This document shows positions 34,738-62,606 of a stretch of 64,000 nucleotides of DNA, piece by piece (position 1 is the first letter of the stretch; every line of letters begins with the position of its first letter). The position numbers and the translations under genes were made by a program. Location of the stretch: assembly GCF_002197845.1 (NCBI RefSeq), contig NZ_NIDE01000014.1, forward strand, positions 62,001 to 126,000, in the 5' to 3' direction. Origin of the DNA: Fimbriiglobus ruber. GTDB lineage: Bacteria; Planctomycetota; Planctomycetia; Gemmatales; Gemmataceae. The notes under the pieces were generated by a model. It worked only from the letters and a program-made list of their open reading frames with translations. It searched no databases and was not told the origin of the DNA.

Positions 34738-34811
34738 CGGGCTGTAGCTCAGCTTGGTAGAGCGCTTGGTTCGGGACCAAGAGGTCGCAGGTTCAAATCC
34801 TGTCAGCCCGA
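34738..34811 (+). tRNA. tRNA-Pro (CGG)
   Basis: It folds as a cloverleaf. The acceptor stem CGGGCTG pairs with CAGCCCG (34804-34810) and the D arm is GCTCAGCTTGGTAGAGC. The anticodon stem CTTGG/CCAAG has loop TTCGGGA, so the anticodon is CGG. The variable loop AGGTC and the T arm GCAGG-TTCAAAT-CCTGT follow. CCA is not encoded. It is the likely attachment site for the adjacent integrase. Confidence 0.95.
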
Positions 34812-34935
34812 CTTAGTTCGAAGTCCTTTGCCGAACACGTCTTAAGTGTACCTCCCGGTGGTCGGGAGTGCGGCTCGAAACCTCGATGCGACACGGTACA
34901 TGTACCGTTTTCGCTCGCGATTTGGAGCTACACTC

Positions 34936-45422: not shown

Positions 45423-45532
45423 GGCAATTGACCACCTGGCTCGGTTACTATGCTGTGTTGAATCGGCTAAGTTCTGTACCCGCCGGAACAGGCCCAGAAG
45501 GTGAGGCGGCAGACGAGACGCGGAGATCCGAC

Positions 45533-48064
45533 GTGCCCGACAACGATACCCCGACCGAGCCCGGGATTGGCCCCGGACCAACACAGACCCCGACGGCCGG
45601 TAAATACCGCCCATTCGCCGAGGCCCGTGCCTTCGTCCGGTCGCTGGGTCTGAAGTCCCAGCGGGAGTGGTCCGATTACTGCAAGTCCGGACGGCGGCCC
45701 GTGGACATCCCAACGACACCGCACACGGTCTACGCGGAGTGGGTCGATCTGAAGGACTGGCTCGGGAGCGGGAAAGGCTCTACGAAAAGTTTCGAAGAGG
45801 TGCAGGAATACGCCCGGTCGCTCGGAATCCGCACCTTCGAGGAGTGGAAGGCACACGTGAAGGGCGGGCTCCCGCCTGGCATTCCGAGGAACCCCCAGGA
45901 CACCTTCCGGATCAAGGGGTTTACGACATGGAGGGCATTTCTGGACCGTAAGTACCTCCCGTTCGCCGAGGCCCGTGCTCTGGTCCGCACGTGGGGTCTT
46001 CGCACCAAACGGGAGTGGAAGGCAAGGACCGAGCAGCCCGACTTCCCCAGAACGAAGATCCCAAGCTCCCCCTGGGACACGTACCGGGCCGACGGGTGGG
46101 TCAGTCTGGACGATTGGCTGGGGAACGAGAATCGCTGGTCCCGGCCGCAGATCCGGGGGTTTCTGGACTCGCTCCTGCCGGTCGTACACGACCTATCCCC
46201 GGCCGAGCTGCTCGTCATCCTGAAGCGGAAGGGCCTTTTCGAGGGCGACTTCCGGAAGAATTCCAACCGGTCCATTCTTGAAGATCTGATCAAGCTTCTC
46301 AACGCCAACGACCCCGCTGGAGTCGTCCAGAATCTCGTCGACCGACTCGACCAGACGGTGCCGCCTACCGATCTTTCACCAACCGACACCCCCACCGGAG
46401 ATGGCGAGCCGCCCCCGTTAGGTGAAGACACCCTGAACGGTGGATGGGTAGGCGAGCCCGAACAGCCGCGGGATCCGGACACCGTCGACGGCGTTGCCGA
46501 CATCGTGAACGACGACCAGAGCGTCCTCGACTTTCTGATCGAAAATCGCGTCGCCGGGTACTGGCAGCGGGTTCTGACCGGCGACCCGACCTTCTCGGTG
46601 GAAGACTTCCGCCGACACGAGGGGGGAACGCGGTCGAATCTGACTCGGGACCGGTTTCTTGAAGAGTACGACGCTGCGATGAGCCTCCTAATCCCGCCGA
46701 CCTACGCCTACCAGAAGGTGGGCCGGCTCGCCCCTCCATTGCCGATGCAGCGGCTGATCGCGTACCGGGTTTTGAAGCAGAAGTGCGTCGGCAACTGGTC
46801 CGGAGTGGGAGCGGGAAAAACCGTCTCGGCCATCCTATCTGCCCTGGTCGTCGAAGCCCAACTCACCGTCGTCCTCGCGTTCAACTCGACCCTGGAGATG
46901 TGGGAGGGCGAAATCAAGAAGGTTTGCCCCACCGCTCAGGTCGCGGTAAAATCCCGGGGGCCGTTCGAGTTCCCCGGGGCCGGGCCGGCATTCGTGGTCA
47001 TGAACTACGAGTCGTTCCAGCAGGAGTGGGCGAAGACGGAGTTTGTGCCCCACGTCACGACGGCGGGTCGTCGGCTCGACATGGTCATCATCGACGAGAT
47101 CCAGACGGTCCGCCAGCGGAGCGGGGCCGAGGAGTCGGCCCGCCGCGGTGGCGTCAACCACCTCCTGAACGAGGCACGTGCGAGGAACGAGAACCTCCGG
47201 GTGCTCGGGATGTCGGCCACGCCGGTGATCAACGACCTCCACGAGGCCCGGGTGACGCTGGAAATGATCACCGGCAGGTCGTTCGCCCACATCCCCACAC
47301 GGTATTCGGTCGCGAACGCCATCACCTTCCACCAGCAGATGATTCGCCACGGGTTGCGGCTCCGGCCGAGGTATCCTGTGACCGTCGAGGAGGCGGTGGT
47401 GACCGTGGACGGCCGGCCGGTCCTGGACGACCTGCGGGCTCTCGGCCGGATCAGACTGGGGGGCATCCACGCCCTGGAGCGGGTGTTGTTGCGGGCGAAG
47501 CTCGACGCAGTGCGGGACCGCCTCCGGCCCGGCACACTCGTCTACACGCAGTTCATCGAGGGTTTCGTCGATGAACTGATCGGTGCGGCCATCGGAAAGG
47601 GGCTGTCGGTCGGGGTGTTCACCGGCGACGACAAGAGCGGCCTCGACCGGTTCCGAAACCGGCTCAAGCCGGACGTCCCGGCCGCCGACCGCTGCGACGT
47701 GCTCATCGGCTCGGCCCCGGTCGGCACGGGTGTCGACGGACTCCAGGAGGTCGGAGACCGGCTCATCTTCGCGAGCCTACCATGGACCGCAGCCGAGTAC
47801 GACCAGGTGATCGGACGGTTGAAGCGGCACGGGGCGAGGTTCGAGCGGATCGAGGTGTTCGTTCCCCAGGTGGTGCTTACGGACGGCAACTCGAACTGGT
47901 CCTGGGACGCTTACCGATTCCAGTGTATCCGGTTCAAGCGAACGCTGGCCGACGCCGTAATCGACGGTACCGTCCCGGAGGGCCGTCTCCCCACCCGGGA
48001 CGAGATGTTCCGACAGTCCCTCGCGACACTTCAGGAGTGGATGGACCGCGTTGCACGGGACTGA
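45533..48064 (+). CDS. SF2 helicase with three N-terminal tandem repeats
   Basis: The protein has about 843 residues from a GTG at 45533 with GGAG 8 bp upstream (TTG at 45428 is the longer alternative). Three units of about 55 residues near the N-terminus each have F-x-E-A-x-x-x-V-R-x-x-G-L-x-x-x-x-E-W, IP-x-x-P-x-x-x-Y/F and W-x-x-W/F-L. The helicase core has Walker A GVGAGKTVSAIL, VIIDEIQTVR (DEIQ box), GMSATPV, and the C-terminal motifs LVYTQFIEGF, GSAPVGTGVDGLQEV and QVIGRLKRHG. It is probably a DNA translocase or remodeller in defence; no nuclease domain is seen. Confidence 0.8.
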   Translation: MPDNDTPTEPGIGPGPTQTPTAGKYRPFAEARAFVRSLGLKSQREWSDYCKSGRRPVDIPTTPHTVYAEWVDLKDWLGSGKGSTKSFEEVQEYARSLGIRTFEEWKAHVKGGLPPGIPRNPQDTFRIKGFTTWRAFLDRKYLPFAEARALVRTWGLRTKREWKARTEQPDFPRTKIPSSPWDTYRADGWVSLDDWLGNENRWSRPQIRGFLDSLLPVVHDLSPAELLVILKRKGLFEGDFRKNSNRSILEDLIKLLNANDPAGVVQNLVDRLDQTVPPTDLSPTDTPTGDGEPPPLGEDTLNGGWVGEPEQPRDPDTVDGVADIVNDDQSVLDFLIENRVAGYWQRVLTGDPTFSVEDFRRHEGGTRSNLTRDRFLEEYDAAMSLLIPPTYAYQKVGRLAPPLPMQRLIAYRVLKQKCVGNWSGVGAGKTVSAILSALVVEAQLTVVLAFNSTLEMWEGEIKKVCPTAQVAVKSRGPFEFPGAGPAFVVMNYESFQQEWAKTEFVPHVTTAGRRLDMVIIDEIQTVRQRSGAEESARRGGVNHLLNEARARNENLRVLGMSATPVINDLHEARVTLEMITGRSFAHIPTRYSVANAITFHQQMIRHGLRLRPRYPVTVEEAVVTVDGRPVLDDLRALGRIRLGGIHALERVLLRAKLDAVRDRLRPGTLVYTQFIEGFVDELIGAAIGKGLSVGVFTGDDKSGLDRFRNRLKPDVPAADRCDVLIGSAPVGTGVDGLQEVGDRLIFASLPWTAAEYDQVIGRLKRHGARFERIEVFVPQVVLTDGNSNWSWDAYRFQCIRFKRTLADAVIDGTVPEGRLPTRDEMFRQSLATLQEWMDRVARD

Positions 48065-48086: not shown

Positions 48087-49064
48087 TCACACCGCCAGAT
48101 CGAGGGCGGCCTCCCAGGCCTGCTCTTTGATTTTGGCAGCGGTCCCCCACCAGATGCTCTGAAGCCGGTTGCTGGCTCGCTCCTGCTCGTTCCGGCCCCG
48201 GTAGGTGCGGTGGTCGAGCAACTCGGTCACCGCGTTGTACGCACACCAGAACGTGTTCTTGATCCCGGGCATGTCGTGCCCGATGCCGCCTTCAAACAGT
48301 CCGTGGAGCCGCTCCCGAGTTTCCTTCGCCCGCCCATTGTCCGAGGCGTCTTCGGGATCGGGGTAGAGCACCTTGAAGTAGGTGTCGAGCTGGGCCTGAG
48401 TCGGGTAGACCGAGGCGAGCCGGTCGATCTTCGACTGGGCATCGTCGTAGAACTTGGTCGCCAGCCCGAGCACTCGCTGGGCTGCCGCAATCTTTGCAGT
48501 CAAGTTGCCGTTGTGCCGGATGCTGACACCATCCCCCTGCCCCTGTCGCAACGCCATCGACAGCGTGTTCTGGCAAACGACTCGGACCGGGGTAAACAGC
48601 ACTCGGAGGGCGGCAGAACCGTCGTGAGCGTTGGATAGCAGCAGGTACTTGTTCACCATGTCATCGGTGTTTTTGACACGGATCTCGCCCGGCAATTTAG
48701 CGAGGAGGAAAATCTTCTCCCCCCGGCCGAGGGCACCAGCGGTGTGGTACCGGAGGCCACCGTCGGCAACGACCGCGTCCAGGAACCCGAACGCTTGGCG
48801 GTTCTGGACCGGGACGTATCGGTCACTGACCGTCCCGAGGACACTCTGGTTGTCGTACCGGACGACGGCTTTGGTCCGCGGGACCATCAGGCCGTCGACG
48901 GTGGCGACATCGGTGAGGGTGATCTCGTAGTCGAGACCGGCGGCGATGATGGCCTCCGCGGCAGTGGCCGGGGCATCGAGCTTCTGACCGAGCTTGTGCC
49001 AGGGGCTCTCGCCGAAGTAGGCGAAAGCGGGTTTGCCGTTGGTCGTGGCGATGTTTGCAGGCAT
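48087..49064 (-). CDS. DUF932 (phage/plasmid-like) protein
   Basis: The protein has 325 residues from MPANIATTNGKPAFAYFGESPWH. The pattern SPWHKLGQKL, VLGTVSDRYVPVQNRQAF, LPGEIRVKNTD and RVVCQNTLSMAL is that of DUF932 proteins found on phages, plasmids and islands; the biochemical role is unknown. GAGGAG precedes the ATG. It is convergent with the helicase gene, 22 bp apart. Confidence 0.85.
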   Translation of the reverse strand: MPANIATTNGKPAFAYFGESPWHKLGQKLDAPATAAEAIIAAGLDYEITLTDVATVDGLMVPRTKAVVRYDNQSVLGTVSDRYVPVQNRQAFGFLDAVVADGGLRYHTAGALGRGEKIFLLAKLPGEIRVKNTDDMVNKYLLLSNAHDGSAALRVLFTPVRVVCQNTLSMALRQGQGDGVSIRHNGNLTAKIAAAQRVLGLATKFYDDAQSKIDRLASVYPTQAQLDTYFKVLYPDPEDASDNGRAKETRERLHGLFEGGIGHDMPGIKNTFWCAYNAVTELLDHRTYRGRNEQERASNRLQSIWWGTAAKIKEQAWEAALDLAV

Positions 49065-49372
49065 CTGATCTCCTCGGGGTTCAGGGGGACTCACCTGATA
49101 CCCCGCCCACCCGCGGTAAACGCTGACTAACGCCTTTCATCAATTCTTCAAAAATCACGCAAAATCTTATCTGACATGTCTTTGTGCTGTGTGCCCGTTT
49201 TCGCAACACTGAGGAATTCAAGATACCTCACCACGTGATATTGACTGCCAGCTTGAGGGACAGTAAACTTTGAAGTATGGGTTATTCCTCACCAAGTCGA
49301 CCAGGGAAATCGACACAACTAAATCGTTGTGTAAACCTTGACGGCGTGAAAAGACAACGATAGGATTGGGTT
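49065..49372. promoter_or_regulatory. AT-richer divergent intergenic region
   Basis: This 308 bp lies between the DUF932 gene and the long plus-strand operon. It is clearly richer in A and T than its surroundings (for example 49136-49170 and 49240-49370). It is the only long gap before 49373, so it should hold the operon promoter, and likely operator sites for the XRE-type protein. I see no clear inverted repeat to name as operator. Confidence 0.5.
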
Positions 49373-49810
49373 ATGGTCCCGGATTTTGCCGAAGACGACA
49401 ACCTCCCGCCGGGTGTCCACCCCGCCGAGTGGGACGAACTGGTGGCTCGCTTCGGGTGGAACCCGCGGCGGCTTCAGTTGCTCGCGGGCCTGAAGCGGGC
49501 TCTGGTCCCCCTCCGCTCAGCGGGCTGTCGGCAGCTCTACCTCGACGGCAGCTTCGTGACGGCGAAGGAGATTCCCGGCGACTACGACGCGGCGTGGAAT
49601 CCGATCGGCGTCAACCTGCTGATGCTCCGGTTGGTCGAGCCGGTTTTTTTCGACTTCCGGAACAAGCGGGCGGCCCAGAAGGCCAAGTACGGCGGGGAGT
49701 TCTTCCCTTCGACCGGCGACGCCGACGGATGCGGGAAGACCTTCTTCGACTTCTTTCAACAGGACAAGAGCACCGGACTCCCCAAAGGGATCGTGGTCAT
49801 CACCCCCTGA
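49373..49810 (+). CDS. Nucleotidyltransferase-like small protein (DUF6932-like)
   Basis: The protein has 145 residues. The sequence LYLDGSFVTAKEIPGDYDAAW has the G-S-x(n)-D-x-D core of the polymerase-beta nucleotidyltransferase fold (as in MNT/AbiEii-type toxins), and the C-terminus has KTFFDFFQQDK. Proteins of this DUF6932-like type often lie next to HTH genes in toxin-antitoxin-like pairs, as here (13 bp before an XRE gene). It is the first gene of the operon. Confidence 0.65.
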   Translation: MVPDFAEDDNLPPGVHPAEWDELVARFGWNPRRLQLLAGLKRALVPLRSAGCRQLYLDGSFVTAKEIPGDYDAAWNPIGVNLLMLRLVEPVFFDFRNKRAAQKAKYGGEFFPSTGDADGCGKTFFDFFQQDKSTGLPKGIVVITP

Positions 49811-49823
49811 CGGGCAGGCACTT

Positions 49824-51272
49824 ATGATCAAGAACGACCGACAGTATCAGGCGACCAAGCTCCAGGCGGATAAGTTCGCCGTCGCCCTCCGCCAGGCCGA
49901 GGAACGCGAGTACTCCGATTCCCTGCTCGCTGACCTTGAGCGGGACGCCCTCCGCAGTCAGCTCGATGACCTGCGGGCCGAGCTTGCGGAGTACGACCGC
50001 CTCCGGTCCGGCCAGGTGAAGGAAATCCAGGTGGACACGGTCGACCGCATCCCGCAGGCGTTGATCAGTGCCCGCATTGCCGCCGGCCTGAGCCAGAAGG
50101 AGTTGGCCGAGCGACTCGGGCTCAAGGAGCAGCAAATCCAGCGTTACGAGGTGACAGACTACGCATCAGCCGGCCTGTCCCGCATCCTCGAAGTGATGCG
50201 AGCGTTGGGGGGCGGGGTCCGGCTGACGATGACCGTGCCCACGGCTGTCCCGAGCGGCGGGGACTTTCTAAAGCGTCTGGCCAAGGCCGGGGTGAGCAAG
50301 GAGTTGGTCACCCGCCGTCTCCTCGATCCCGAAACCGCCACGAAGCTGGAATCCGCGGACCGGGGGGAGAGCGAGACTGCTGTTCTTCGGGCGGCCTCCA
50401 CCGTCAGCAGGGTGTACGGCTGGCCTACCGACTTGTTGTTCGGCAACGCCCCACTGGCGATCTCGCCGGAGGTGGCCGGACTCGCCCGGTTCAAGATGCC
50501 GTCCCGGGCGAGTGAATCCCACCTGGGCGGGTACGTCATCTACGCCCACCACCTCGCGGGGCTGGCCCTTAAGGCCGCCCCCACGCTGGCACCGACGATC
50601 GTGCCCACGGAGGCCGGGGCGTTCGCGAAGGCGTTGCTGTCCCGGCACGGGTCGATGACGTTCGAAACGGCCCTTCGCTACGCGTGGGACCTGGGGGTGG
50701 TGGTCCTACCCCTGAGGGACAGCGGTGCGTTCCACGGGGCCTGCTGGCGGGTTGCCGGCCGCAACGTCGTCGTCCTCAAACAGCGGACCGCGTCCCTTGC
50801 CCGGTGGCTGATCGACCTCCTGCACGAGCTCTTCCATGCTGGGCAGGAGCCTGACAAAGCCGAGCGGGAGGTGATCGAGGCCGCGGAGACCTCGACCGAC
50901 CGCCGCGAGTCCGATGAGGAACAGGCCGCCGTCCAGTTCTCCGGGGACGTCGCGTTGGGCGGCCGGGCGGAAGAGCTGGCCGACCTGTGCGTCCGGGAAG
51001 CGGGCGGGCGGGTCGAACGCCTCAAGGTCGCCGTCCCCGCGGTCGCCGCCCGCGAGCGGGTCGCCGTGGACGTGCTCGCCAACTACATGGCGTTTCGCCT
51101 GTCGCTCCAGGGGGTCAACTGGTGGGGGGCGGCGACGAACCTCCAGCCGGCGGGCCAGAACCCCTGGGCCGTCGCCCGCGACTGGCTTCTTCAACGCCTG
51201 ACCCTGGACGCCCTGGACCCGGCCGAACGCGACCTTCTGCTCCTAGCCCTGACCACCGAGGAGGAATCATGA
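49824..51272 (+). CDS. XRE-family regulator fused to an ImmA/IrrE metallopeptidase
   Basis: This protein has 482 residues. A coiled coil (about 10-65) is followed by an XRE HTH (ISARIAAGLSQKELAERLGLKEQQIQRYE, about 78-110), a central linker and an IrrE-like peptidase domain with the zinc motif LLHELFHAGQEP (HExxH, about residue 335). Such proteins sense damage and cleave a repressor, or act as antitoxins to the adjacent gene. Its stop overlaps the start of the next gene (ATGA). Confidence 0.85.
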   Translation: MIKNDRQYQATKLQADKFAVALRQAEEREYSDSLLADLERDALRSQLDDLRAELAEYDRLRSGQVKEIQVDTVDRIPQALISARIAAGLSQKELAERLGLKEQQIQRYEVTDYASAGLSRILEVMRALGGGVRLTMTVPTAVPSGGDFLKRLAKAGVSKELVTRRLLDPETATKLESADRGESETAVLRAASTVSRVYGWPTDLLFGNAPLAISPEVAGLARFKMPSRASESHLGGYVIYAHHLAGLALKAAPTLAPTIVPTEAGAFAKALLSRHGSMTFETALRYAWDLGVVVLPLRDSGAFHGACWRVAGRNVVVLKQRTASLARWLIDLLHELFHAGQEPDKAEREVIEAAETSTDRRESDEEQAAVQFSGDVALGGRAEELADLCVREAGGRVERLKVAVPAVAARERVAVDVLANYMAFRLSLQGVNWWGAATNLQPAGQNPWAVARDWLLQRLTLDALDPAERDLLLLALTTEEES

Positions 51273-51913
51273 GCGAACAAACGGCCGCCGGTAAACCGGC
51301 CTTGAAGCCCCTAGCCATCAAATGCACGAGTTCGAAGTGCGAGGATGGGCTGCACTGCTTCAAGGCCACTAGGAAGTTGAAGGCATCCGGCGACGAGGGG
51401 GCGTGCCGGTCGTGCGGGGTCAAGCTGGTGGACTGGCCACGGATCCGCCAGCTTGATCCCGCGGACGCCGCCCACACGTTGACCGCGATGCGACTCGAGC
51501 TGATCCGGCACCACTTCTGGCACGTCGCGATCGACGAGGATGCGGTGGTCAAGGCCCGGCGGAAGGGGAAGACTGGGCTCGAGGCCGCAGTCCCCAAGCG
51601 GATCCGCCAGTCCGTGGGCAAGGAGAAGCCCTTCCGGGACGGCCAGCAGACGCCGTTCGTCGGGAACGTCATCTACTACGCCCAGCACGCCACCGCGTCA
51701 TGTTGCCGGACGTGCATGGAGTACTGGCACGGGATCCCGAAGGGCCGTGCCCTGACCGACGCAGAGGTCGAGTACCTGTCGCGGCTGGCCATGCTGTTCA
51801 TCACGGAGCGGCTGCCGGACCTGCCCCAAGAGGGCGAGCGTGCGACTCGGAAGTACGGGGAGAAGTCGCAGAGCCTCGCGGCGGGAGGGCGTGATGCCGC
51901 TCACACTGATTGA
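51269..51913 (+). CDS. Cys-rich protein with DUF4186-like C-terminus
   Basis: The protein has 214 residues with two parts. The N-terminal CTSSKCEDGLHC ... ACRSCG looks like a zinc-binding knuckle. The C-terminal FVGNVIYYAQHATASCCRTC continues as MEYWHGIPKGRALTDAEVEYL, which matches my recollection of DUF4186. GAGGAA precedes the ATG, and the coding region overlaps the radical SAM gene by 20 bp. Function unknown; the tight coupling makes it a partner of the radical SAM enzyme. Confidence 0.6.
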   Translation: MSEQTAAGKPALKPLAIKCTSSKCEDGLHCFKATRKLKASGDEGACRSCGVKLVDWPRIRQLDPADAAHTLTAMRLELIRHHFWHVAIDEDAVVKARRKGKTGLEAAVPKRIRQSVGKEKPFRDGQQTPFVGNVIYYAQHATASCCRTCMEYWHGIPKGRALTDAEVEYLSRLAMLFITERLPDLPQEGERATRKYGEKSQSLAAGGRDAAHTD

Positions 51914-52898
51914 CACCGACCGGTTCTCGGGGGTGATGCGAGACCGCTCGGTCGACCGGGCGAACCGCCGGCTGCTGGTCACTAACTTCCACGGGACCGA
52001 GCAGGAGAAGGACTTCACCCTCCCGGCGAACTGCGGCGGCTTCGGGCGGGTGCGTCACTTCCGTCGGGAGACGAGTTCGGGCTGGCCCCCGAACCCGCTG
52101 CCGATCGACCCGGCGGCCCGAGCCCTGGGGGTTCCGCCGGCGAACCTGTTGACGGCCCAAGTGTTTCAGAACGCCGCCTGCAACTGGCGGTGCTGGTACT
52201 GCTTCGTCCCGTTCGAGCTTCTCTCGGCCAACAAGAAGCACGCCGAGTTCCTGACGGTGGGGCAGCTCATCGACCTGTACCTCGCCGAGGCGAACCGGCC
52301 GGCGGTGATCGACCTCACTGGCGGGCAACCGGACCTCGTGCCGGAGTGGGTGCCGTGGATGATGGAGGAGTTGGACGCTCGCGGCCTGTCGGATTCCGTG
52401 TACCTGTGGTCCGACGACAACCTGAGCGGCGACTACTTCTGGCGGCACCTATCCGACGCCGACCGGGACCGTGTCGCCGGCTTTAAGAACTACGGCCGTG
52501 TCTGCTGCTTCAAGGGGTTCGACCCGGAGTCGTTCCAGTTCAACACAACGGCTGAGGGGGCACTGTTCGACCGGCAGTTCGAGCTCATCGCCCGGCTGAT
52601 CGGGCACGGCCTGGACGTGTACGGGTACGCGACGTTCACCACGCCGACGGCCGACGGCATTCCGGAGAAGATGGCCCGGTTCGTGGACCGCCTGCAGTCG
52701 GTGTCGGACAACCTCCCGCTCCGGGTGATACCGCTGGAGATCAAGCCGTTCACCCCGGTCAGGCCTCGGATGGAAGACGTCCATCACACGGCGGTCGAGA
52801 ACCAGCATCTCGCCATAGCGGCGTGGTGTGAGGAGCTCCGGCAACGGTTCCCGGAGCCAATGCGGGCGGCATCGATCTGTGACGTGCCCCTTCGGTGA
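51894..52898 (+). CDS. Radical SAM enzyme
   Basis: The protein has 334 residues. The cluster-binding motif is CNWRCWYCF (CxxxCxxC, about residue 97-104), followed by the SAM-binding glycine region IDLTGGQPDLVPEWV and barrel segments to DVPLR. It has no SPASM domain and no long extension, so it is a compact radical SAM fold whose substrate is unknown. GGGAGG stands before the ATG. Its gene lies between the Cys-rich gene and a nucleotide-kinase-like gene, suggesting small-molecule or nucleotide modification. Confidence 0.85.
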   Translation: MPLTLIDTDRFSGVMRDRSVDRANRRLLVTNFHGTEQEKDFTLPANCGGFGRVRHFRRETSSGWPPNPLPIDPAARALGVPPANLLTAQVFQNAACNWRCWYCFVPFELLSANKKHAEFLTVGQLIDLYLAEANRPAVIDLTGGQPDLVPEWVPWMMEELDARGLSDSVYLWSDDNLSGDYFWRHLSDADRDRVAGFKNYGRVCCFKGFDPESFQFNTTAEGALFDRQFELIARLIGHGLDVYGYATFTTPTADGIPEKMARFVDRLQSVSDNLPLRVIPLEIKPFTPVRPRMEDVHHTAVENQHLAIAAWCEELRQRFPEPMRAASICDVPLR

Positions 52899-52971
52899 GG
52901 GAGACAGGCGGACCGGTGGTCTGGGTGGTCGTGGTGGGGTCTGTGCAAGTTGTTTCAGAGGGAGGTAGGGC

Positions 52972-53592
52972 ATGGTTGCTCCTTCGGTGATCGGCGTCGC
53001 CGGCCGTGTCGGTAGCGGGAAGTCGTCGCTGGCGACGCTGCTGAGCGAACAGTCGGGGTGGGCGGTGGTCCGCTTCAGTGACTACCTGAAGCACCTCGCG
53101 GGTGAGCGTGGGATTATCCCGGATCGGGAGTCTCTCCAGCGGCTCGGGGTTGAGTGCATCGAGGCCGGATGGGGCCAGTTCTGCACGGCCGTGCTGGAGT
53201 TCGCCGGTTGGCGTCCCGGTGACAGCGTGATCGTCGAAGGGATCCGGCACCCCGAGGCGGTCGGGGCGTTGAACGCCGTGGTCGCCCCCGGTCGGGTGTT
53301 CTTGGTCTTCCTTGCCGCGGACGACGTGGTGATCCAGGCGAGGATCCGGATTCGCGACGGGTCCGGGGTTGAGCTGCAGAAGATCGAGAGTCACCCGTCG
53401 GACGGTGGCGTCGGCGAGCGGCTTCACGCGGTCACCGACATCGTGCTCGACGCCAACCGGCCCCTACCTGCACTGGCCGGTGAGGTGTGGCGGTGGCACG
53501 GGGTCCGCACGAGGTATCGTTGCGAGTTACCACGATTTCTCCATGTAGTTGCAGGGCAACGGCAGTCGTCCAACACAACAGTGGTGGCGTAA
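52972..53592 (+). CDS. P-loop kinase, (d)NMP- or dephospho-CoA-kinase-like
   Basis: The protein has 206 residues. The N-terminal P-loop is GVAGRVGSGKSSLATLL, then VVRFSDYLKHLA (substrate-side Asp), DSVIVEGIRHPEAV (Walker B-like Glu) and a lid-like RIRIRDG. The fold is that of adenylate-kinase-like (d)NMP kinases; the substrate is not known. AGAGGGAGG precedes the ATG, and the gap to the radical SAM gene is 73 bp. Confidence 0.75.
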   Translation: MVAPSVIGVAGRVGSGKSSLATLLSEQSGWAVVRFSDYLKHLAGERGIIPDRESLQRLGVECIEAGWGQFCTAVLEFAGWRPGDSVIVEGIRHPEAVGALNAVVAPGRVFLVFLAADDVVIQARIRIRDGSGVELQKIESHPSDGGVGERLHAVTDIVLDANRPLPALAGEVWRWHGVRTRYRCELPRFLHVVAGQRQSSNTTVVA

Positions 53593-53604: not shown

Positions 53605-55260
53605 ATGACGCCGGTTCTTTCTGGTAGCAAGATGGACGTGAAGCGGATTGGCGGCGTAGAGATCTTTCGCCCCCGCTTGGTGAGCGAACAGCTCGCACGC
53701 AGCGAAGCCGAAACGCACCTTCGCGAGGGGTACGCCTCGGGAACGTACACCGACACCAAGAAGATCAACGAGATCCTCCAGTATCAGTTCAGCCACTTCT
53801 ACGGGCTGCTGAAGGCTGAGATCGCGAAATCATCATCCCGTCACTTGATGGAGTTTCTCCTCGGTCAGTACGACTTCACGGCCCAGATCGTGGAGAAACA
53901 GAAAGCGGGGCAGCTTTCATCGGACGAGCGGACTTATTGGAGCTCACGCGGACCGATCATCCGCCGTGCACTTAAACATCTTGCCGAAATTGTCGCAATG
54001 TTGGCCCCGCCGGAGACCCCGAATCTGGACCCTGCAGCCCTGCCGCTTAACCTCGACACGATCATGATCGCCGGGGAGATGCTGGTCGAGCTTTATGTGA
54101 TGAGCGATCAGACGCACGGGTTGCACCCTGATGAAACGACCCTGACGATCCACCCTGAGGGTGGGCTCGACTACCTGTCGCTCAACGTCAAAGACTTTGA
54201 ACGGTACCGGGGTCTGTCCGCTCGCATCGGTCGCGACACGGCACGGCAGTCCATGTATCTGGCCGGCAAGCCCCTTCGGTACGATCTGGATTACCAAGCC
54301 TCCGAACTCGACGCCGCGTTCAAGGGGGAATTCGGCTTCACCTACAAGCAAGGCGTCCAGGCCCTCCAAGAGTTGATCGACAAGGCGGTTGTTCCCGACC
54401 CGGGTTCATTTGACGTCCCCTTCGCACGGCGTGAGTTGATGACCGACCGGGTGGTCGAACTGACGGGTGCCGGAAGGGCATCGGTTGACCGGTTCATCGC
54501 CGGCTTCTCCCTGACGAAAGGCCAACTCGAGGGGCGGCTAATCTTCAAACCCAAACAGGAGTACCGGGCCCTCCGGCGTGGGTTCTTCGAGATGCCCCAC
54601 GAAACCGGCCCGCACCTGGTCTGGTCGCGGTGCATGGCCCGGGAGTGCCTCCTGGAACTGATGAAGGGCACGCTCTTCCAGCGTTGTCCCTCAGAGTGGA
54701 AAGCCCCTGGCGTCAACAAGGCTCTCGCGACACTGCAGAACAAAGGCGGAAACTGGTTCGAGGCCGAGGTGGACCGGAACATGGCGGTTCTCGGTGCCCA
54801 GGGGAAGGCCTCGCTCAAGGGCGGGATCGGCGTCGGGGCCGACAGGGTAGCGATCCCCGCGGACATCGGCGAAATCGACTACTTAAGTTTTCTGCCAGCC
54901 GAGGGGCTTCTCACGCTCCTGGAAGACAAGATGGTCGACGGCGGGTTCGAGCCCACTTACTTCCGAGACGACCTGAGCAGCTTTGTTACCGGCAAAAAGC
55001 CGTACGCCGACCAACTGAAGCGGAAGGTCGAGTGGGTTCGGAACAACCTTGCGGCCGTCTCTAAGGGGCTCTCCTCCCTGTTCCCCGGAAAGCCGCTGGT
55101 CAACCCGACCCGGGTCGCCGGGGCGTTGGTGACTCTGCACCCGACCTACGCCTCGTACTTCATCTCGGATTACCCGTGTGTGCCGCTGACGGAGTTGATG
55201 GACGACTACAAGGCGAAGGGGGTGTGGCCCTACGACATCGGCGTGAGCAAGGTGCCATGA
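53605..55260 (+). CDS. Unknown protein with C-terminal nuclease-like motif
   Basis: The protein has 551 residues and is not a recognised family. The first 400 residues are mostly helical. The C-terminal part has IGEIDYLSFLPAEGLLTLLEDK, in which D and then E-D-K are spaced as in PD-(D/E)XK nucleases, preceded by WFEAEVDRNMAVLG. The end YKAKGVWPYDIGVSKVP follows. Its stop codon overlaps the start of the single-TRD specificity gene (ATGA), so the two are likely one module, perhaps a target-recognising nuclease. Confidence 0.55.
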   Translation: MTPVLSGSKMDVKRIGGVEIFRPRLVSEQLARSEAETHLREGYASGTYTDTKKINEILQYQFSHFYGLLKAEIAKSSSRHLMEFLLGQYDFTAQIVEKQKAGQLSSDERTYWSSRGPIIRRALKHLAEIVAMLAPPETPNLDPAALPLNLDTIMIAGEMLVELYVMSDQTHGLHPDETTLTIHPEGGLDYLSLNVKDFERYRGLSARIGRDTARQSMYLAGKPLRYDLDYQASELDAAFKGEFGFTYKQGVQALQELIDKAVVPDPGSFDVPFARRELMTDRVVELTGAGRASVDRFIAGFSLTKGQLEGRLIFKPKQEYRALRRGFFEMPHETGPHLVWSRCMARECLLELMKGTLFQRCPSEWKAPGVNKALATLQNKGGNWFEAEVDRNMAVLGAQGKASLKGGIGVGADRVAIPADIGEIDYLSFLPAEGLLTLLEDKMVDGGFEPTYFRDDLSSFVTGKKPYADQLKRKVEWVRNNLAAVSKGLSSLFPGKPLVNPTRVAGALVTLHPTYASYFISDYPCVPLTELMDDYKAKGVWPYDIGVSKVP

Positions 55261-58819: not shown

Positions 58820-59422
58820 ATGGCAACGACCGAACACGTCTCTTGGCCGGTGGGGAACTGTCTTTGTGACAAGCCCCTGGTGATGAACCACACGAGCTCG
58901 CCAGACCACCCTTGGGGTGGTGCTACCTCTTATCGCAGCTTGGACTGCGGCGAGTGTTCTAAGGCCTGGTATTTGAGCGGTTCGCACCTGGTCAATCTCG
59001 CTTCGGAGAGGAGTGTCGAAGCCCAAATTGCTCCGTTGGAGAAACAGGCCACTAGCTTTCGAACCCAGATCGGCTCACTCACCCAGGGCGTGCTGAAACG
59101 CTGGTGCGAGCAACACGGATTTCCCACCAAGAAGCAAGAGTGGGAAACCGCCTCAACTGCAGGGTTGTACACCGGCACCCTTCAGGCCTTTTACAAGGAT
59201 CGACAGACCAAATCGTTGGTTCAAGTGCTCCGGCTGTTCGCAGATTCTGATACGTTTCGTGGCCTCGCGTCTTCATCCGAAAAGAGCGACTGCCAGCGAC
59301 TGCAAGCTGATTTGAAAAAGGTTGAGCAGCAGATCTCTGAGCTTCGGCGAGGAATTCAGCGAGTCCGGTACAAGGAGCTCGACCTGTCAGCACGTGGCTC
59401 GACAGGGGGAGGCCAATCGTGA
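58820..59422 (+). CDS. Hypothetical protein between hsdS and hsdR
   Basis: The protein has 200 residues from MATTEHVSWPVGNCLCDKP. Cys residues C14, C16 and DCGECSK in the first 50 could bind a metal; the middle and end are helical and coiled-coil-like (QRLQADLKKVEQQISELRRGIQRVRYKELDL). The stop overlaps the hsdR GTG start (GTGA), so it is translationally coupled to hsdR. It may be a restriction modulator; no family is recognised. Confidence 0.6.
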   Translation: MATTEHVSWPVGNCLCDKPLVMNHTSSPDHPWGGATSYRSLDCGECSKAWYLSGSHLVNLASERSVEAQIAPLEKQATSFRTQIGSLTQGVLKRWCEQHGFPTKKQEWETASTAGLYTGTLQAFYKDRQTKSLVQVLRLFADSDTFRGLASSSEKSDCQRLQADLKKVEQQISELRRGIQRVRYKELDLSARGSTGGGQS

Positions 59423-62400
59423 CCGACCAACTGCCCTCCTTCCTCGAAGACCACATCTCGCAGATCCCGGCGTTGCAGCTCCTGCAGAACCTAGGGTGGG
59501 ATTACCTCACGCCGACGGAGGCGGTCACGCTCAGAGGCGGCAAGCTGTCCGGCGTTATCCTGGACGGCGTGCTGGTGCCTCAGTTACGGAAGCTGAACAA
59601 CATCCGCTTCAAGGGGGACGAGTACGAGTTCAGCGAGGCGAACATCCAGTCGGCGTTGCAGGCGATCAAGGAGGTGCTGTTCGACGGCTTGGTGCGGACC
59701 AACGAGAAGATCTACGACCTGCTCGTGCTCGGCAAGAGCCTGTCCCAGACCATCGACGGTGATACCAAGAGCTTCCCGCTGTTCTTCATCGACTGGAACC
59801 CGGCCACGTTCCTGACCAACAACGTCTTCCACGTCACGGAGGAATTCGAGGTGGAGCGGACCGGCAGCCACGAGATGCGGCGGCCGGACCTCGTGCTGTT
59901 CGTCAACGGCATCCCGCTGGCCGTGATCGAGTGCAAAAGGCCGGACCTCAAGGAGCCGATCGAGCAGGCGATTTCTCAGCAGTTGCGGAACCAGCGGGAC
60001 GACGAGATCCCCAAGCTGTTCCTGTACTCGCAACTGCTGCTGGCGGTGTCGAAGAGCGAGGCCAAGTACGCCACCACCGGCACCCCGCTGAAGTTCTGGG
60101 CGGTGTGGAAGGAGGACGTCGACGCCGTACTTGCTCCGATCGTGAACGCACCGCTGAGTGATGCAAAGAAAAACCGGTTGTTCGGCGACCGGTACGCATA
60201 CGTGCGGGCCTACTTCGACCGCCTGGAGCAAGAGCGGCGGGAGGTGACGCCCCAGGACCGGGCGTTGTACTCCCTGTGCCGCCCCGAACGACTGCTCGAC
60301 CTGACGTACAACTTCACCCTGTTCGACGCCGGGGAGAAGAAGGTCGCCCGGTACCAGCAGTTCTTCTGCATCAAGAAGATCCTCGGGCGGATCCGCGAGC
60401 GGGACGACGCCGGCCGCCGCAAGGGGGGCGTCGTCTGGCACACCCAGGGGAGCGGCAAGTCGCTGACCATGGTGATGCTGGCCAAGGCCGCCGTCCGGGA
60501 GAACCTGCCGGACTACAAGATCGTGCTGGTCACCGACCGGGTGGACCTGGACGACCAGATCTACAAGACATTTCGGCACTGCGACCTGGAGCCCGACCGG
60601 GCCAAGAGCGGGAGGCACCTGGCCACCCTGCTCGCCGGTCCCAAGAGCCGGGTGGTCACGACCATCATCGACAAGTTCGAGACGGCCGTGCTCAAGTGCG
60701 AGCTGCGGAACGAGAGCGACAACGTGTTCGTGCTGGTGGACGAGAGCCACCGGGGGCAGTACGGGGGCATGCACACCCGCATGCGGAAGGCCCTGCCAAA
60801 CGCCTGCTTCATCGGGTTCACCGGCACCCCGGTGAAGCGGAAGGAGAAGGACACGATCACCAAGTTCGGCGGGCTGATCGACACCTACACGATCCGCCAG
60901 GCGGTGGAGGACAAGGCGGTGGTCCCGCTCCTGTACGAGGGCGGGACGTGGAGCAGCAGGTCGACCGGAAGACCATCGACCGCTGGTTCGACCAGTTGAC
61001 GGCCAAGCTGACCGTCGAGCAGCGGGCCGACCTGAAGAAGAAGTTCGCCAGCACCGACCAGTTGAACAAGGCCGAGCAGAAGGTGAAGGAGATCGCCTTC
61101 GACATCAGCGTCCACTTCCGGGACAACTGGCAGGGCACGCCGTACAAGGCCCAGCTGGTGACGCAGGACAAGACGGCCGCCCTGCTTTACAAGAAGTACC
61201 TGGACGAGTTCGGGCTGGTGTCGTCCGAGGTGCTCATCTCCGGCCCCGACGACCGGGAGGGGAACGAGGAGGTCGACGAGGAGGACCTGCCGGCGGTGGT
61301 GTCCTTCTGGAAGCGGATGATGGCCAAGCACGGGAGCGAGGAGCAGTACAACCGGAACGTGATCAACGCGTTCAAGTCCGGCGAGCACCCGGAGATCATC
61401 ATCGTCGTGGACAAGCTGCTCACCGGGTTCGACGCCCCGCGGAACACGGTGCTGTACCTGACCCGGCTGCTCAAGGAACACACCCTGCTCCAGGCCATCG
61501 CACGGGTGAACCGGTTGTTCGAGGGGAAGGACTTCGGGTACATCATCGACTACCGCGGGGTGCTCCAGAACCTGAACAAGGCGTTCGACCTGTACGGCAA
61601 GCTGGAGGAGTTCGACGCGGCGGACCTGGAGGACGCCGTCATAGACGTCGCCGAGGAGGTGAAGAAGCTGCCCCAGCGGCACTCGGACCTGTGGGACGTC
61701 TTCAAGGGGATCAAGAACAAGCAGGACGAGGAGCAGTACGAGCTGCGGCTGGCGGACGAGGAGCTGCGGGAGCGGTTCTACGAGCGGCTGTCGGCATTCT
61801 CCCGCAACCTGGCCCTGGCGTTGTCCTCGGTCCAATTCACGGAGGACACCCCGAACGACAAGGTCGAGCGGTACAAGGCCGACCTCACCTTCTTCGTGAA
61901 GCTGCGGGCGGCGGTAAAGCGGCGGTACGCCGAGGTGGTGGACTTCAAGGAGTACGAGGCCAAGATCCAGAAGCTGATCGACACGCACGTGACCACCGGC
62001 GGGGTCGAGAAGGTGACCACCCTCATTAACATCTTCGACAAGGACGCCTTCCTCAAGGAGATCGAGAAGCTGGAGGGCACGGCGTCCAAGGCGGACACCA
62101 TCGCCCACCGGACGAAGAAGACGATCATCGAGCGGATGGAGGAGGACCCGGCGTTCTACCGCAAGTTCTCCGAGATGCTGGAAGACGCGATCCGGGCGTT
62201 CCGCGAGAAGCGGCTGGCCGATCGGGACTACTTGAGCAAGGTCATGGAGATCGCCGACTCGGTGCGGAACCGTACCGGCGACTCGCTGCCAGATAAGCTC
62301 CGCAACCAGGATGTGGCGAAGGCCTTTTACGGGGTCGTCCTGGAGCCGCTGGGGCGGCACGTCGCCGAGCCGGGGGAATGTCGGGAACTCTCGGCGGACG

Positions 62401-62606
62401 CGGCATTGCGGATCGACGAGATTGTGCGGGCCGAGCGGATTGTCAGCTGGACGACGAACACCGATGTGCAGAACCGCATGAAGAACCTGATCGAAGACTA
62501 TCTGCACGAGCTTAAGGATGAGACCGGGCTGCTGCTGACCTTCGAGGACATCGACGAGATCCTCGAGAAGTGCCTCGACGTCGCCAAGCGGAGGTACGCG
62601 GCGTGA
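59419..62606 (+). pseudogene. hsdR: Type I restriction endonuclease/translocase subunit, one frameshift
   Basis: The two frames together give about 1062 residues. The N-terminal nuclease domain is PDLVLFVNGIPLAVIECKRPD (PD...ExK), the SF2 motor has Walker A WHTQGSGKSLTMVML, VLVDESHRGQYGG and GFTGTPVKRKEKD. After the offset at about 60940 come EQQVDRKTIDRWFD, IIIVVDKLLTGFDAP, LLQAIARVNRL and the HsdM-contacting C-terminus. One missing G near GAGGGC (60937-60942) separates LLYEG from RDVEQQVD. Overlap with the previous gene and the next gene is 4 bp each. Confidence 0.92.

Follow-up and report, generated by a model that had tools for sequence, protein, structure and literature searches.

Prokaryotic viperins (pVip/VakA in PADLOC, NF038283 in NCBIfam) combine a radical SAM enzyme with a small nucleotide-kinase-like protein encoded beside it in defense neighborhoods, and to our knowledge they are the only antiviral systems in which radical SAM chemistry and a nucleotide kinase occur together. 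Xre-COG2856 pairs (XRE with ImmA/IrrE) form toxin-antitoxin or switch modules with an XRE helix-turn-helix (HTH), an HExxH motif and probable autoregulation through palindromic operators (PMC2701414). (PIN)-GNAT-EVE operons are mobile loci beside type I restriction-modification (RM) genes with an ASCH protein, sometimes fused to XRE, and an AAA_17-type P-loop protein (PMC7641849). Features of all three have counterparts in the gene set analyzed here, a copy of which lies in a 64,000-nucleotide stretch of Fimbriiglobus ruber (contig NZ_NIDE01000014.1, positions 62,001 to 126,000; the window). The families of this set are designated A (DUF6932, nucleotidyltransferase (NTase)-like), B (XRE-HExxH), C (long DUF4186), D (radical SAM), M (DPPW methyltransferase-like), H (ASCH) and K (nucleoside monophosphate (NMP)-kinase-like). 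Judged by gene content, the window locus is a shortened copy, A-B-C-D-K, of what appears to be a mobile operon usually arranged A-B-C-D-M-H-K. In our judgment the chances are evenly balanced that this mobile operon is switch-controlled and yields a modified nucleotide used in defense.

An earlier note on this DNA, made from the sequence alone, had proposed that five genes form one system, which should recur in the same order near RM or other defense genes. A D profile scan of 84,980 species genomes recovered D relatives in conserved gene order at 63 loci from at least 13 phyla, and seven plasmids carry the block as well. After all seven families had been mapped, A-B-C-D-M-H-K was the commonest arrangement; it is also the order in Candidatus Scalindua, the one strong homolog outside the window's own genome among 392 planctomycete genomes. 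The proposal held in that the genes belong together. However, the complete set has seven members, M and H having escaped the note along with a 22-bp palindrome before A, and the window form is reduced. In 47 untruncated loci (window included), D was present in 47, K in 45, H in 43, B and C in 42 each, M in 40 and A in 31, with B-C-D contiguous in 37 and D-M-H-K in 29. Junctions between block genes mostly overlap or measure <30 bp (medians -26 to 9 bp), and components are fused into one protein as M-H (L057, L065), H-K (L036), B-K (L047) and C-H (L046). Many flanking open reading frame (ORF) 'clusters' were antisense shadows of conserved genes and were discarded. Given the conserved order, the near-exclusive co-occurrence and the fusions, it is nearly certain from these comparisons that the block genes form one system. 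The block is rare: two of the 392 planctomycete genomes, the window's own included, gave a strong match, and among 292 cyanobacterial genomes the query locus alone matched itself.

The set appears to consist of two halves. D-M-H-K occurs without A-B-C in L045, L065 and L067, and no match to C was found anywhere in the two genomes checked, those of L045 and L067. In L051 and L054 the A-B-C half and the D-M-H-K half lie on opposite strands. Because the halves occur separately or on opposite strands, A-B-C probably serves for control and D-(M)-(H)-K for enzymatic work. The first position can be filled by different genes, DUF6932 in most loci, DUF4160-like in eight (a group made by clustering, of which the one member tested scored E 0.0045, below the Pfam cut-off) and other small proteins in L053 and L061.

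Plasmid and viral sequences were searched as well. D, full-length B, long C, near-full-length M, H and K each matched the identical seven of 72,556 plasmid records (for B, C and M, matches spanning at least 80% of the query were counted), and six of these seven plasmids are predicted to be conjugative. Annotated maps of plasmids from Tolypothrix, Nostoc, Aulosira, Roseovarius and Rhizobium bear out the gene order. The Tolypothrix block genes are listed within an 18.4-kb insertion in a 2022 genome paper that recognized no system in them (PMC9679502). A wider spread on plasmids was seen for A, for the N-terminal HTH part of B and for shorter DUF4186 proteins. Neither the 50,697 phage records searched nor viral contigs contained a relative of D, and viral carriage of the block was rejected on this ground. 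In a tree of 60 D sequences, 22 changes were needed for 13 phyla, compared with a minimum of 12, and Planctomycetota, Acidobacteriota, Chloroflexota and Bacteroidota were split. Distances of the other families correlated with those of D (rho 0.27-0.54, above every permutation; species phylogeny is not factored in). On this sequence evidence, plasmids and genome islands rich in anti-virus genes have carried the operon between bacteria that are only distantly related. In the cyanobacterial plasmids L097 and L099, K is followed by two very large adjoining genes, one encoding a 1012-aa protein without family match and the other a helicase/AAA protein.

The neighbors of the block are enriched in defense genes. 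In 20 genomes, 117 block-flanking genes, called with a simple ORF chooser, matched 242 PADLOC models at 1e-10, compared with 40 models for 115 control genes from distant stretches of those genomes; the contrast is strong, although it counts models, inflated by redundancy, instead of hit-bearing genes and carries no formal test. Control matches belonged mostly to broad families (mad3, mad8, PD-T4-6). Strong single matches among the flanking genes included Argonaute (pAgo), type IIG, Hma (HmaA), DISARM (DrmD), BREX (BrxH), SAVED (SAVED-PDDEXK), AbiE (AbiEii), Gabija (GajB) and DRT. That these neighbors are specifically defense genes and not general cargo speaks against a reading in which A and B are a toxin-antitoxin pair stabilizing plasmids and islands, with C-D-M-H-K as cargo whose host role is unrelated to defense. 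The loci that hold D-M-H-K without A-B-C, and those in which an unrelated protein replaces A, also argue against it. In its favor, the block sits on conjugative plasmids and in a tRNA island, A occurs with a B-like XRE protein but without the rest of the block on about 20 plasmids, and pairs of Xre and Zn-protease proteins have been proposed as toxin-antitoxin families (PMC2701414). We consider island maintenance of this kind distinctly unlikely. On one of the plasmids with the stand-alone pair, that of Agrobacterium fabrum (L124:3462-6272), the DUF6932 and XRE genes are followed by a Beta_protein gene and adjoin reverse transcriptase and helicase genes; a related palindrome, TTACAAC-N6-GTTGTAA, lies at the place equivalent to that of the block palindrome.

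The block palindrome was characterized as follows. ACACAAC...GTTGTGT surfaced in an inverted-repeat search of five promoters, and the consensus AACACAAC-N6-GTTGTGTT was scanned in 59 loci over the 380 bp surrounding the first gene. With at most 2 mismatches in 16 positions, it was present within 350 bp upstream in 39 of 45 A-bearing loci. Apart from L044, the remaining A-loci have it 14-24 bp within a start that had been called too early, which brings the count to 44 of 45. None of the 14 loci without A contained it, nor did any of 1,040 control segments with up to 3 mismatches allowed. Since the consensus was derived from four of the scanned promoters, the weight of the evidence comes from the controls rather than from the hit rate alone. 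The palindrome typically starts 15-60 bp ahead of the start codon, and tandem copies, as in the window, are also present in L029, L035 and L097-L099. Its 14-base core has a single exact match in the 12.36-Mb window genome, at this site; 15 exact operator matches in viral contigs are about the chance number by an estimate from a guessed collection size. The recognition helix of B is near-constant (KEQQIQRYE) in A-bearing loci and reads TPQ-ISRIE in 11 B proteins of A-less loci. In L044, the sole A-locus without palindrome, this helix has diverged. Because its presence tracks the recognition helix, the palindrome is very likely the operator of B, and the simplest reading is that B would bind it and control its own operon.

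In the window, the five genes lie on the plus strand exactly where the earlier note had placed them, separated by 13, -4, -20 and 73 bp (A/B, B/C, C/D and D/K), and the AT-richer stretch seen upstream of A was confirmed (Table 1). Catalytic-type residues appear intact: GS and DxD in A, H/E/H in B, the cluster Cys residues in C and D, and the P-loop in K. H was not found anywhere in the window genome by a profile search that detects it in 21 of 24 block-bearing genomes. The possibility that M is hidden elsewhere in this genome was rejected, the whole-genome search having returned just two short generic matches. The A-B-C-D-K form recurs in Paenibacillus HW567 (L044), whose genome likewise lacks H. 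Directly after K lies gene X (53605-55260, +), which encodes a 551-aa protein of no known family. A possible PD-(D/E)XK nuclease motif (GEIDYL...LLEDK) was read in it by eye, and one distant plasmid homolog was found in Enterobacter mori (28% identity). As an eighth member gene X was rejected, and it is left out of the set because it was not a recurrent neighbor in ORF clustering and had no family match.

Table 1. Positions of the block genes, predicted operators and attachment-site tRNA in the window.
Feature	Position	Strand	Description
Predicted operator	49312..49333	no strand	GACACAAC-TAAATC-GTTGTGTA; 2/16 positions off consensus
Second, weaker operator copy	49351..49372	no strand	3/16 mismatches; abuts start codon of A
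Gene A	49373..49810	+	DUF6932, nucleotidyltransferase-like; PF22014 8e-37
Gene B	49824..51272	+	XRE helix-turn-helix and C-terminal HExxH (IrrE/ImmA-like); HTH_3 1.5e-7
Gene C	51269..51913	+	Long DUF4186 protein; PF13811 2.4e-26
Gene D	51894..52898	+	Radical SAM enzyme, unnamed family; CxxxCxxC at 96-103
Gene K	52972..53592	+	P-loop (d)NMP-kinase-like; AAA_18 3.4e-7
tRNA-Pro(CGG)	34738..34812	+	Island attachment-site tRNA; ARAGORN

Profile matches upheld the reading of A, C, D and K in the earlier note as NTase-like (GS...D.D), Cys-rich DUF4186-like, radical SAM and P-loop kinase genes. A reached 127.3 bits against the DUF6932 cut-off of 27; its G59, S60, D70 and D72 (GS and DxD) are invariant in 34 of 34 homologs, and it has a near-full-length but modest PADLOC match (PDC-M63A, 5e-9). 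For B, called an XRE-IrrE protein in the note, the XRE part stands, with residues 78-139 also matching HTH structures in the PDB, and an HELFH motif is present, in which H334 and H338 are invariant and E335 is conserved to at least 90%; the IrrE part of the name drew no Pfam match. On its HExxH motif, the C-terminal part of B is assigned as IrrE/ImmA-like.

C scored 92.3 bits against the 25-bit cut-off of PF13811 and has extra Cys residues, forming an N-terminal C-x4-C-x4-H...C-x2-C cluster and a C-terminal CC-x2-C. Its predicted structure is all-helical with a predicted local distance difference test (pLDDT) score of 90 (core blocks 94-99). No PDB match at Z >=2 was obtained for this model and no PADLOC model (2023) matched C, possibly a DUF4186 protein of novel fold. 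Among viral predicted structures (BFVD), the model had a single match, A0A481Z275 of Pithovirus LCPAC001 (E 5e-6, 30% identity over 130 columns).

D matched Radical_SAM at 3.5e-5 (24.5 bits, under the Pfam cut-off of 29.5) and contains CNWRCWYC. C96, C100 and C103, together with G143, G144 and P146 of the SAM-binding GG(E/x)P, are invariant in 59 of 59 homologs, in which 41 alignment columns are invariant. The model (pLDDT 96.3) has the radical SAM fold. No curated NCBIfam equivalog was matched above its cut-off, viperin being nearest; QueE (TIGR03365) gave 13.2 bits (E 0.047), short of its 206-bit cut-off. By VIA-align the closest fold is PFL activase (Z 17.0, root-mean-square deviation (rmsd) 3.3, 230 aligned), followed by QueE (Z 13.7), spore photoproduct lyase (12.9), TYW1 (12.7), RlmN (12.4) and viperin (11.7-12.0), several of which act on nucleobases. 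The match to PFL activase, together with SkfB and SuiB as top Foldseek matches, would fit a D that is a peptide or protein maturase (similar to those of ribosomally synthesized and post-translationally modified peptides, or a glycyl-radical-enzyme activase), the operon then yielding a modified peptide or activating an enzyme. However, D has no SPASM extension and the block has no glycyl-radical enzyme. A precursor-peptide gene between block genes was rejected, the junction medians given above leaving no room for one. A maturase would also leave the NMP kinase, ASCH and deoxynucleoside triphosphate (dNTP) enzymes unexplained, and we hold this role to be very improbable.

K contains GxxGSGKS with invariant G90, R92, H93 and R124; the window protein matches the phage deoxynucleoside monophosphate (dNMP) kinase profile phrog_139 (1.1e-7), and the K profile matches AdkA-like and adenylate kinases (6.5e-12). 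M weakly resembles RsmD/N6-adenine-type methyltransferases and has a conserved DPPWY motif (D182 and P184 invariant, P183 and W185 at least 95%). Against PF10237 (N6-adenineMlase; cut-off 23.2 bits), the M of L028 scored 29.0 bits and the others 13-14 bits. H is an ASCH protein, with 23.6 bits in L034 against the PF04266 cut-off of 21.2 and other members slightly below. In the operon or abutting it are dGTPase-like HD genes (four loci), dCTP-deaminase-like genes (four loci), MazG, NUDIX, dNK, HNH_5 (four loci) and DUF763. The dGTPase, dCTP-deaminase-like, MazG, NUDIX and dNK genes suggest chemistry on nucleotides. Shorter relatives of M in L122:6914-11809 (an Agrobacterium fabrum plasmid) and L123 adjoin a Pua-like/metallophosphoesterase gene, with a UvrD-helicase/ATPase pair and adenylosuccinate synthetase nearby, a hint of a second purine system built on M.

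The same enzymes could serve self-marking of nucleic acid, the main rival to a defensive nucleotide. D-M-H-K would then hypermodify a base in the DNA or RNA of the host or the element itself, with ASCH as the reader and neighboring HNH or RM nucleases cutting unmodified DNA, in the manner of RM systems. Such marking is expected to be constantly active, yet the operon appears switch-controlled through its operator and XRE-HExxH protein. A nuclease is not a constant part of the block, and M and H, the best candidates for modifying and reading, are missing in the window and in Paenibacillus. The DPPWY motif of M would suit it, as would the M member that exceeds the N6-adenineMlase cut-off, although that is the single member to pass a Pfam model. 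HNH_5 genes adjoining the block in four loci, dNTP-clearing enzymes in the operon and plasmid-borne mobility would also fit, and ASCH/PUA domains are predicted readers of modified bases (PMC7641849). Weighing these points, we find self-marking somewhat unlikely.

For the preferred reading, a defensive modified nucleotide, we propose the following course. B would repress the operon by binding the palindrome, and A, an NTase-like protein replaced elsewhere, would form with the protease-like domain of B a switch sensing infection or DNA stress. After release, D would carry out radical chemistry on a nucleobase or nucleoside with the help of C, its essential-looking partner. M, when present, may methylate or dock the product, and H, when present, may bind or hydrolyze the modified nucleoside. 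K would phosphorylate the monophosphate, giving a modified nucleotide by which foreign replication is blocked or marked. The defense role is proposed from neighborhood, mobility and domain logic.

Several observations weigh against this course. M and H are missing in the window, and because of their absence the full pathway cannot run as proposed in this host; the window and Paenibacillus copies might work with D, C and K alone or with host functions replacing M and H. Partial sets also occur: certain loci have D-M-H-K but not A-B-C, and others just B-C-D or just D. No curated Pfam IrrE model matches B at E up to 1. The fold of D resembles many radical SAM enzymes at a similar level and by itself does not fix the substrate class. 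None of the accessory nucleotide enzymes is present in more than a minority of loci, all four dGTPase loci come from related cyanobacteria, and a control of 20 loci also had one NUDIX and one dNK gene.

The block of the window resides in a tRNA-linked island and is followed by a type I RM locus, both as the earlier note had described. The 3' half of tRNA-Pro is repeated directly and perfectly over 45 bp, as exact-repeat extension and whole-genome pattern search showed. One copy lies at window 34770-34814 and the other, outside the window, at contig 138140-138184, delimiting an island of 41.4 kb; a probable tyrosine recombinase (assigned by eye) stands immediately beyond the distal copy. Downstream of the block, the same island holds the type I RM genes. 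HsdR, 59419-62606 (+), is read from two frames that overlap, with the N-terminal part in 59419-60999 and domain 3 plus the C-terminus in 60276-62606, which suggests a sequencing error or a frameshift. The block is closely preceded by a DUF932 protein, 48087-49094 (-), 3e-63, and a helicase, 45428-48064 (+), with weak similarity to DISARM DrmD. Just past the window (L027:2-2421, contig 126002-128421), adjacent genes gave PIWI/Argonaute (AF1318, 2.9e-9) and SIR2 (8e-10) structure matches, a candidate short-pAgo/SIR2-like pair in the island of the block. Near the island end (L027:8332-11580, minus strand), a run of genes resembles by eye an NTase (GS...D.D), a 2H-phosphoesterase-like and a histidine-phosphatase-like gene.

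The earlier note knew of no described defense system with this set, and our searches agree. No named system containing it was found in Pfam, NCBIfam, PHROGs, PADLOC (2023) or the open full-text literature, preprints and most subscription journals lying outside this search. PADLOC 2023 gave no system match, B, D and K having weak partial matches only. DUF6932 was not found in the open full-text literature searched, and most of the open full-text papers that mention DUF4186 are silent on its function. By these comparisons the gene set appears to be an undescribed system that no described one matches; a recent naming may exist, given the 2023 date of PADLOC. Our tentative view, held at a little less than even confidence, is that it represents a new form of prokaryotic immunity, an inducible operon with a cross-phylum operator in which radical SAM and DUF4186 proteins make a modified nucleotide against phages or plasmids. 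If so, an unnamed multi-gene defense system combining radical SAM chemistry with a nucleotide kinase exists in at least 13 phyla, and includes in DUF4186 a protein with a confident model and no match among solved structures. From cyanobacteria, proteobacteria, actinobacteria and planctomycetes to a contig binned as archaeal, the predicted operator of this system is nearly unchanged; such constancy is unusual in a local regulator, and it can be tested directly. Plasmid-borne copies are present in the sequenced carriers Tolypothrix PCC 7712, Nostoc NIES-3756, Roseovarius THAF8 and Rhizobium WYJ-E13, so that function can be tested now.

Compared with the phage pathways of dNTP hypermodification, the block shares a K that matches the dNMP kinase phrog_139 and recurrent dGTPase, DCD, MazG and dNK. 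In contrast to those pathways, it was not found in the phage records or viral contigs, and no thymidylate-synthase-like or polymerase gene was recognized in the block loci examined. Unlike Xre-COG2856 pairs, B carries HTH and HExxH in one protein, partners DUF6932, DUF4160 or other small proteins, and would drive a long enzymatic operon. In contrast to (PIN)-GNAT-EVE operons, no EVE, GNAT or PIN gene was recognized among the annotated block-locus proteins (no search was aimed at EVE or GNAT). The available part of the (PIN)-GNAT-EVE paper holds no DUF4186 or DUF6932, and its one mention of radical SAM concerns a cobalamin-dependent enzyme beside another EVE group (PMC7641849). Viperin ranks near the top of the weak family matches of D (2.1e-4 in NCBIfam, 2.5e-5 in PADLOC). 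However, D reaches 20.6 bits against a 180-bit cut-off, over the radical SAM core only, and its match to the viperin structure 5vsl (Z 11.7, rmsd 3.4, 206 aligned) is tied with those to many other radical SAM enzymes. We know of no counterpart of A, B, C, M or H in viperin loci. The overall logic of the block would nevertheless be akin to that of viperin and its kinase, carried out by different proteins.

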